Part shown: positions 42,428 through 44,652 of the stretch, piece after piece | How positions within the stretch are numbered: position 1 is the first letter of the stretch | How the letters are laid out: each line of letters starts with the position of its first letter | Assembly (NCBI GenBank): GCA_025451235.1 | Contig: JANWKT010000036.1 | Location: 1-64,000 of the forward strand | Length of the DNA stretch: 64,000 nt | Direction of reading: 5' to 3' | Origin: Flavobacteriales bacterium | GTDB taxonomy: Bacteria; Bacteroidota; Bacteroidia; CAIKAF01 | The notes under the pieces: model-generated | What the model was told of the DNA's origin: nothing | Seen by the model: only the letters and a program-made list of their open reading frames with translations | Databases searched by the model: none | Made by a program: the position numbers and the translations under genes

Positions 42428-44059
42428 ATGAGTGAAACAGTGGATCATACCGAAACTGAATACAAACCAAAAGGTTTGTTCGAATATTTTTTAACTCATT
42501 GGCGGGGAACTTTCGCCACTTTCTTTTTATTGCCTATTTCATTTTGGTTTACCTTATGGTTAAAAACCCGCAATAAAATTGTTTTCTGGATGCGATCAGC
42601 CCCCGCCAAACATGATAAAAGAGTGGCCGAAGTACAACGTCAAATAAACGAATGGAGAGAATCAGGAGCCAAAGAAAAATTAACCACAGGCCGTAATGGC
42701 TGGTTCACCATGAGTGAATTGGTCCCCATCTATAAAAAAACAAACCGTAAGATCTTCCTCAACATGTATGATGTATTGGAGATCAACGAAGAAAAAGGAA
42801 CCGTAAGAGTGGAACCACAGGTAAACATGGGACAAATTACCGCAGCCCTCAATCCTAAAGGCTGGACCCTGGCTGTGGTGCCTGAACTGGATGATTTAAC
42901 GGTGGGTGGATTGGTAAATGGTTTTGGGGTTGAAACCAGTTCGCATAAATACGGACTGTTCCAATATATCTGCGAAAGTTTTGAATTGGTAACTGCCGAA
43001 GGAAAATTGATCAAATGCAGCCGGAATGAAAATCCTGAAATGTTTAGCATGATCCCCTGGAGCTATGGAACCCTTGGCTTTTTAGTAGCGGTTGAATTGA
43101 AAATAATTCCGGCGAAAAAATATGTAAGAGTAGAATACCTTCCATTGTTCAACCAAGATGAGATCGTAAAGAAATTTGATACAGAGTGCAGAAAGATCAA
43201 AGAGAATGATTTTGTGGAAGGATTGGTATATAGCAAACATGAAGGGGTGATCATGATCGGCCATATGGTGGATAAAGTAGGGAAGGATGGGAAACGGAAT
43301 CCATTGCGTAGATGGTATAAGCCCTGGTTCTATAAACATGTGCTCAAGATCCTCAACAATAAGAAAACAGTGGTGGAATATGTTCCACTGCGCCAATATT
43401 ACCATCGCCATACCCGGAGTTTGTTTTGGGCAATGGCCGAAGTAATTCCATTTGGGCATAAAGGCTGGCACCGTTTCTTTTTTGGATGGGCCATGGCACC
43501 ACAAATTTCTTTGATGAAATATTTTGAAACGGAAACTACCCGCCGTCTTCGCGAAAAATTTAATGTAGCCCAAGATATGCTCATGCCTATGGATAAACTC
43601 AAAGAATCCATGGACCATTTTCATGACCATTGGGGATTATCGCCGATATGGCTTTGTCCTATGGCCGTGTATGAGCAACCCAATGGATTGGGATTTATTC
43701 ATCCGTACAAAAAAGAAGATGGTACCATCGACGAAATGTTTGTAGATATTGGAGCTTACGGTGTTGGGAAAACCCCAGGCTTTGATGGAAATAAAGCTTT
43801 GCACGAATGTGAACAATTTGTGATCAAACATAAAGGGGTACAGGCCATGTATGCCAAAACATTATTAAGTAAAGAGGATTTTAGAAAAATGTTCGACCAT
43901 TCCTATTATGATATCCTCAGATCTAAACTTCCCTTCAGCGACAAAGCCTTTCCGGAGGTGTATGATAAATTATCGCGGAAGGCAAGGGTATCGGCCATTG
44001 ATTATAAGAAGAACAAGATTCCTGTGGAAGAAAAAGTGCTGGTGGAAAAGAAATCTTAG
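42428..44059 (+). CDS. DHCR24-like FAD-dependent delta(24)-sterol reductase homologue
   Basis: 543 residues from the ATG at 42428 (a TTG at 42413 overlaps the promoter box). Recalled against human DHCR24 the match is strong and colinear: TTGRNGWFTMSELVPIYKKT, VRVEPQVNMGQITAALN, PELDDLTVGGLVNGFGVE, SSHKYGLFQ, GTLGFLVAVELKIIPAKKYV, PLRQYYHRHTRSLFW, and FPEVYDKLSRKAR at the end. An N-terminal hydrophobic segment (GTFATFFLLPISFWFTLWL) would anchor it to the membrane, as in the eukaryotic enzyme. The PCMH-type FAD domain is non-covalent. DHCR24 reduces the side-chain C24 double bond of sterols with NADPH. No sterol-pathway gene is nearby, so the bacterial substrate (sterol, hopanoid or other isoprenoid) is unknown. 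Confidence 0.85.
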   Translation: MSETVDHTETEYKPKGLFEYFLTHWRGTFATFFLLPISFWFTLWLKTRNKIVFWMRSAPAKHDKRVAEVQRQINEWRESGAKEKLTTGRNGWFTMSELVPIYKKTNRKIFLNMYDVLEINEEKGTVRVEPQVNMGQITAALNPKGWTLAVVPELDDLTVGGLVNGFGVETSSHKYGLFQYICESFELVTAEGKLIKCSRNENPEMFSMIPWSYGTLGFLVAVELKIIPAKKYVRVEYLPLFNQDEIVKKFDTECRKIKENDFVEGLVYSKHEGVIMIGHMVDKVGKDGKRNPLRRWYKPWFYKHVLKILNNKKTVVEYVPLRQYYHRHTRSLFWAMAEVIPFGHKGWHRFFFGWAMAPQISLMKYFETETTRRLREKFNVAQDMLMPMDKLKESMDHFHDHWGLSPIWLCPMAVYEQPNGLGFIHPYKKEDGTIDEMFVDIGAYGVGKTPGFDGNKALHECEQFVIKHKGVQAMYAKTLLSKEDFRKMFDHSYYDILRSKLPFSDKAFPEVYDKLSRKARVSAIDYKKNKIPVEEKVLVEKKS

Positions 44060-44124
44060 AATCCCGTCTTGGTCATTTTATTATTGAATGTTTGTATATT
44101 ATTCGAAACCAATTGACAAAAAAC

Positions 44125-44652
44125 ATGTCATCGAAATTGTATTTAGGTCGTTATCAAGAAAAATCGCTGCGAAATCCATATCATGATTATACCTCCGAAT
44201 GTTGGTATATGATTACGATCAATACACACAGCCATAAAAATTATTTTGGAACAATTGCAGAGACGGACAATTGTCCGTCTTTGCTAACCACCGATATAGG
44301 AGATTTTGCGATAAAATGTTGGGAAGATCTTCCGGACCATTATCCACAAATTTTATTGGACGAATTTGTTTTGCTGCCGGATCATTTGCATGGATTGATA
44401 AAATTTACTCCTGACGAGAATTTTCTATTATCACGAAATCAATTCGGAGTTCAATCAAAAAACCTTTTCTCAGCCATTCGTGCATATAAAGCCACGGTAA
44501 AGCGGTATGCCAACGAAAATAAAATTAATTTTCAATGGCAATCAGGATATCATGATAGGATCATTTATACCGAAGAACTTCTCAATAATTGTCGTAATTA
44601 TATTAAACGCAATCTTTCTGCCGCAGATAGAAGTGGTACCCCGCAGCAATGA
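44125..44652 (+). CDS. REP-associated tyrosine transposase (RAYT, Y1/HUH family)
   Basis: 175 residues from the ATG at 44125. The family pattern is clear: ECWYMITINTHSHKNYFG at the start, the HUH metal site LLPDHLHGLI (His87, His89), and WQSGYHDRIIYTEELLNN with candidate catalytic tyrosines (Tyr142, or Tyr148/159). RAYTs cut and move REP palindromes rather than themselves forming classical IS elements. A palindrome recurring elsewhere in the window lies 2 bases after its stop. It follows the DHCR24-like gene in the same direction. Confidence 0.87.
   Translation: MSSKLYLGRYQEKSLRNPYHDYTSECWYMITINTHSHKNYFGTIAETDNCPSLLTTDIGDFAIKCWEDLPDHYPQILLDEFVLLPDHLHGLIKFTPDENFLLSRNQFGVQSKNLFSAIRAYKATVKRYANENKINFQWQSGYHDRIIYTEELLNNCRNYIKRNLSAADRSGTPQQ
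44261..44280. repeat. 20-bp perfect palindrome inside the RAYT gene
   Basis: AGACGGACAATTGTCCGTCT is self-complementary and encodes part of ETDNCPSLL in the RAYT frame without disrupting it. It may be a palindrome inserted into, or tolerated by, the gene. Confidence 0.7.

Follow-up and report, generated by a model that had tools for sequence, protein, structure and literature searches.

A probable sterol delta(24)-reductase of the DHCR24 family in a Bacteroidota genome with sterol-forming genes

Background

An open reading frame in a 64,000-nucleotide stretch of DNA (hereafter the window) from a genome labelled Flavobacteriales had been annotated, from its letters alone, as a bacterial homologue of the delta(24)-sterol reductase DHCR24, and it raises the question of whether this bacterium modifies sterols and of what the substrate would be. 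Human DHCR24 performs the last double-bond reduction of cholesterol synthesis. Because sterols and fossil steranes are taken as eukaryotic signatures, every bacterial lineage that carries genes for forming and modifying sterols bears on that interpretation. The initial annotation regarded the family as mainly eukaryotic, a view that needs qualification: a 2016 survey had already listed homologues in methanotrophs and myxobacteria (PMC4919349), so that the present protein, whose nearest relatives are bacterial, cannot be regarded simply as an enzyme of eukaryotes out of place.

The gene and its resemblance to human DHCR24

The reading frame is intact from an ATG at 42428 to a stop codon ending at 44059, with an in-frame TTG 15 bases upstream of this ATG (Table 1), and its GC content is 0.41 against 0.395 for the window. 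Its neighbours encode a glycosyltransferase, a DUF2625 protein and a transposase-like protein. The last of these, a REP-associated tyrosine transposase-like ORF at 44092-44652, lies directly downstream and has no match in the same-genus locus L009.

Pfam recovered only the FAD_binding_4 domain (PF01565) in the 543-residue product; no NCBIfam model scored above its cut-off, the best being a sub-threshold sugar-lactone oxidase, and a sequence search of the Protein Data Bank found neither a close chain nor a solved DHCR24 structure. As these resources were uninformative on the family, the resemblance to DHCR24 was tested by direct alignment. The human sequence used was a provisional one, checked against published residue positions: it has the right letter at 17/17 positions from PMC10795535 and, once a constant offset of 22 is applied, at 20/20 docking positions from PMC10053925. 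BLASTP aligned residues 15-520 of the reductase with residues 21-515 of this sequence at 242/506 identities (48%; 492 bits, E 6e-175), which bears out the colinear, nearly full-length match claimed in the initial annotation. The other FAD_binding_4 proteins of the genome, where they match at all, do so over only 114-279 residues at 20-28% identity, which excludes chance or generic FAD-domain similarity as an explanation.

Table 1. Features of the reductase gene and its product, in window coordinates
Feature	Coordinates	Strand	Evidence
DHCR24-family FAD-dependent sterol delta(24)-reductase (predicted), 543 aa	42428..44059	+	Sequence, alignment to human DHCR24, tree
N-terminal hydrophobic helix, residues 27-45, probable membrane anchor	42506..42562	+	Hydropathy; predicted structure has helix 26-56
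FAD_binding_4 match, residues 112-198	42761..43021	+	Pfam PF01565, E 5.5e-15
PELDDLTVGGL, residues 152-162	42881..42913	+	E153, T158, G160, L162 invariant in 30 aligned family members
SSHKYGLFQ, residues 171-179	42938..42964	+	S172, H173, G176 invariant in 30 aligned family members
PLRQYYHRHTRS, residues 320-331	43385..43420	+	P320, Y324, R327, R330 invariant in 30 aligned family members
FPEVYDK, residues 508-514	43949..43969	+	F508, Y512, D513, K514 nearly invariant

A comparison of individual features with the human enzyme showed that: 1) All four motifs named in the initial annotation are present. 2) The disease-variant sites give a mixed picture, most but not all being kept: human-numbered R94, L167, E191, N294, K306, L324 and Y471 are, and E174 is kept as well; the BfaA-like FAD oxidases used below as an outgroup lack R94, L167, N294 and K306. 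3) Four other disease-variant sites (R103, M169, D473 and E480) are changed in the reductase; several of them also vary in other family members, with plant DWF1 or Nannocystis likewise differing from human at several. 4) Both proteins have the FAD domain and an N-terminal hydrophobic segment. The hydrophobic stretch noted earlier is thus real, though with a mean hydropathy of 1.5 it is borderline as a transmembrane helix. The AlphaFold model (mean pLDDT 83) displays the VAO/PCMH-type flavoprotein fold and matches the folds of lactone dehydrogenase, DprE1 and cytokinin oxidase at 11-17% identity.

Phylogenetic affinities

Bacterial and archaeal genomes scanned for the reductase yielded 42 loci. 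The closest copy, from a same-genus genome also labelled Flavobacteriales, is 94% identical and has two downstream genes, 80-82% identical, in the same order. Relatives from Methylococcaceae and other Bacteroidota show 55-61% identity (58% for the Methylobacter luteus protein) and further same-family Bacteroidota 53-60%, while more distant ones come from one Polyangiaceae genome (42%), a Myxococcales MAG (37%) and Nannocystis (34-36%). One locus labelled Candidatus Competibacteraceae (L035, JACSSC010000011.1) has the same reductase identity as the Bacteroidota-family genome G001, and its label is probably wrong. A plasmid scan recovered only distant relatives. A viral source was rejected: no relative was found in a scan of viral contigs, and the significant structural matches among viral proteins are generic FAD oxidases at 8-15% identity.

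A tree rooted on other FAD proteins of this genome had end branches as long as 10 changes per site and told nothing, and a BfaA-like outgroup was therefore used. In the phylogenetic check, which the initial annotation had proposed, the reductase falls in a DHCR24 clade with the human, plant, myxobacterial and methanotroph proteins, split from the bacterial BfaA-like FAD oxidases at 100/100. This tree and the full-length alignment together rule out a generic FAD oxidase. Within the clade, the Bacteroidota and methanotroph reductases group together (99/99 without the outgroup, 85/99 with it).

The eukaryotes are represented in this tree by two anchors only: human DHCR24, which was checked against papers, and a presumed Arabidopsis DWF1 sequence, which serves as an anchor alone and is 37% identical to the reductase. 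Human DHCR24 shows 47-54% identity to these bacterial proteins and 40% to the plant anchor, and a single clade of the human and plant anchors is rejected (AU p 0.003 and 0.0005). The gene lies in a bacterial clade with those of methanotrophs; with only two anchors and long branches, the tree is compatible with the transfer from a eukaryote that had been proposed as well as with the reverse, and with one transfer or several.

Sterol synthesis genes elsewhere in the genome

The window, on contig C36, lacks sterol synthesis genes, as was originally stated; those that we found lie on contig C1, where oxidosqualene cyclase, squalene synthase and squalene epoxidase are encoded together at C1:70029-75019 (L065 10030-15020). 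Among solved structures the cyclase has its best match, which spans most of it, in human lanosterol synthase (E 3e-203), far ahead of squalene-hopene cyclase (E 2e-47). The epoxidase matches human squalene monooxygenase (E 2e-82), and the squalene synthase scores 470.6 bits with TIGR01559 against a cut-off of 286.75. The genome search that had been proposed as a check thus recovered the epoxidase and the cyclase; it found no separate squalene-hopene cyclase, the only other PF13243 match being a weak one (30.9 bits) on contig C38. A polyprenyl synthetase and a gene of the FA_hydroxylase family are also present near the C1 cluster.

Three positions (human numbering) bear on the likely product of the cyclase. 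At position 453 lanosterol synthases have Val and cycloartenol synthases Ile (PMC4919349); it is Ile here and in the nine relatives of the order that were examined, and Val in the four methanotroph cyclases. All of these share Tyr at position 381, so that Y381 and I453 of the present cyclase are both cycloartenol-type. At position 449 this genus has Gln where most relatives have His, the majority of the relatives thus showing Y/H/I at the three positions.

No CYP51-type demethylase was found in the genome: its single P450 (L067 1489-2832, contig C8) lacks the CYP51 motif, has other P450s as its best matches and comes closest in NCBIfam to the albaflavenone monooxygenase and pentalenene oxygenase models, below their cut-offs. 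When the P450 of a methanotroph sterol cluster was used as a query, three genomes of the order gave matches, none above 24-26% identity, and this genome was the only cyclase-bearing one among them. Searches for an ERG4/ERG24 reductase and a sterol C24-methyltransferase found none in this genome, though no control matched in either search.

Across genomes the reductase accompanies the cyclase. Among 16 genomes of the order it is present in 9/10 with the cyclase and 0/6 without (Fisher p 0.0009), and in a sample of 395 genomes of the class in 9/11 with it as against 0/384 without, figures that are inflated by the relatedness of the genomes, one genus accounting for all six negatives of the order. 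The same-family genome G012 (locus L074) has a cycloartenol-type cyclase with no DHCR24 match. In all Bacteroidota loci examined, including the present one, the reductase is unlinked to sterol genes and its neighbours are unrelated to sterols.

Proposed reaction

The presence of sterol-building genes in the genome makes it probable that the reductase is a real sterol-modifying enzyme. Taken with the full-length alignment, the tree, the kept residues, the co-occurrence with the cyclase and the methanotroph precedents, this makes it likely that the protein is a membrane-associated, FAD-dependent sterol delta(24)-reductase of the canonical DHCR24 family, which reduces sterols at C24. Against this reading stand the lack of linkage to sterol genes here and in the Bacteroidota relatives examined, the genome G012 with a cyclase and no reductase, and the four changed disease-variant sites; moreover, the double bonds on which enzymes of the DWF1 type act are 24(28) ones, although no sterol C24-methyltransferase was found in a search in which no control matched. 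Family, fold class, conserved residues and the sterol-forming genes here and in relatives are observed, whereas activity, cofactor use, and exact substrate and product we infer as follows. Squalene synthase would convert farnesyl diphosphate to squalene, the epoxidase would convert squalene to 2,3-oxidosqualene, and the cyclase would form from this a cycloartenol-type sterol. The human enzyme is NADPH-dependent and FAD-stimulated (PMC10795535). The bacterial flavin would likewise be recharged by NADPH, and the reduced flavin would donate a hydride to the sterol C24 double bond, so saturating the side chain. As substrate we propose a sterol made by the bacterium itself. Since the genome yielded no CYP51-type demethylase, the cyclase product probably reaches the reductase unmodified, and the expected product is then cycloartanol (24,25-dihydrocycloartenol) or something closely similar, an identification to which we give about even chances. 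It is the weakest step of the scheme, as position 449 of the cyclase is Gln and the FA_hydroxylase gene near the cluster suggests that other tailoring enzymes may intervene.

The initial annotation had left sterols, hopanoids or another isoprenoid as possible targets. With the synthesis genes in the genome, sterols are the most likely of these. Hopanoids lack the sterol C24 double bond, and this, together with the failure to find a squalene-hopene cyclase in the genome, makes them an unlikely target.

Alternative roles

An improbable alternative is that the reductase acts on the double bond of a non-sterol lipid, such as a fatty acid, menaquinone, carotenoid or other isoprenoid. BfaA is an FAD oxidoreductase for which reduction of a lipid C=C bond, toward 10-methylstearic acid, has been proposed (PMC5660069). 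Among the distant bacterial relatives of the reductase, which share 22-24% identity with it across 71-78% of the query, is an FAD oxidoreductase gene on the Variovorax paradoxus plasmid CP063167.1 (L081 1138-3712); it overlaps a gene for a cyclopropane-fatty-acid-synthase-like methyltransferase, a pair resembling bfaA/bfaB (PMC5660069). The absence of linkage between the reductase and the sterol genes of this genome is also compatible with such a role. However, the BfaA-like outgroup, with its different substrate, is only about 23% identical to the reductase and lies outside the DHCR24 clade with full support, while the reductase tracks oxidosqualene cyclase across genomes and has sister proteins encoded in sterol clusters. 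Membership in a BfaA-type family is thus unsupported, given the 100/100 separation and the lack of a fatty-acid methyltransferase gene among the neighbours of the reductase.

The same lack of linkage to the synthesis cluster would also fit an enzyme that acts on sterols scavenged from a host or the environment, for uptake or detoxification rather than in the cell's own synthesis; yet the genome has its own synthesis genes and relatives devoid of the cyclase are also devoid of the reductase, which renders such scavenging very improbable. Least credible is a vestigial gene or assembly contaminant with no role in this genome, to which the transposase-like ORF just downstream might point, as the frame is intact, its GC content is near that of the window and the 94% identical same-genus copy retains the downstream gene order.

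Comparison with known bacterial systems

Reduction of an endogenous sterol at C24 accords with what is known of the methanotroph homologues. Methylobacter luteus, which has a catalogued DHCR24 homologue, makes only C24-saturated sterols, and Methylosarcina lacus, which has none, shows no C24 saturation (PMC4919349). The Methylococcaceae homologues (e.g. MetluDRAFT_1263 of Methylobacter luteus and MCA1404 of Methylococcus capsulatus; PMC4919349) belong to the same bacterial clade as the reductase, share 55-61% identity with it over the full length and likewise co-occur with squalene epoxidase and oxidosqualene cyclase. In contrast to the situation here, where the reductase is unlinked, no CYP51-like gene was found in the genome and cyclase position 453 is Ile instead of Val, several methanotrophs cluster the gene with those for P450, cyclase and epoxidase, and their sterols are partly demethylated; in loci L022, L024, L038 and L039 the reductase gene is followed by these three genes within about 6 kb. 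The Nannocystis C24 reductases are also DHCR24 family members of sterol-producing bacteria, but they form a separate branch at only 34-36% identity. Bsr, an enzyme of the geranylgeranyl-reductase type (PMC12004948), catalyzes the reaction predicted here, bacterial sterol C24 reduction, from an unrelated flavoprotein family; the present reductase has the FAD_binding_4 (VAO/PCMH) fold, and the geranylgeranyl reductase family is absent from its Pfam (only PF01565) and NCBIfam matches.

The reductase, which is probably functional, is thus a further member of an enzyme family already known in bacteria, and the unusually short pathway to which it would belong in this Bacteroidota lineage is of more interest than the enzyme itself. 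The Bacteroidetes of the 2016 survey, Eudoraea and Fluviicola, had the epoxidase and cyclase and no C24 reductase, and Fluviicola made cycloartenol (PMC4919349). The present family appears to go one step beyond these, adding a C24 reductase to the cyclase route. We tentatively propose that an uncultured Bacteroidota family may form cycloartanol, a plant-type sterol with a saturated side chain, by a very short route in which a DHCR24-type reductase acts directly after a cycloartenol-type cyclase, without C14 demethylation; in this proposal a transfer between domains is implied, as human DHCR24 is closer to the bacterial clade than to the plant enzyme. The set of bacterial proteins that resemble the animal type of DHCR24 is also enlarged, and with it the direction of interdomain gene movement can be tested. 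In Methylocaldum sp. 14B (L030) and a Methylococcaceae isolate (L036), the genes near that for DHCR24 include one for a P450 and one for a cyclase that is shorter, at 626-628 aa, shares 36% identity with the cyclase of this genome and is perhaps a squalene-hopene cyclase.
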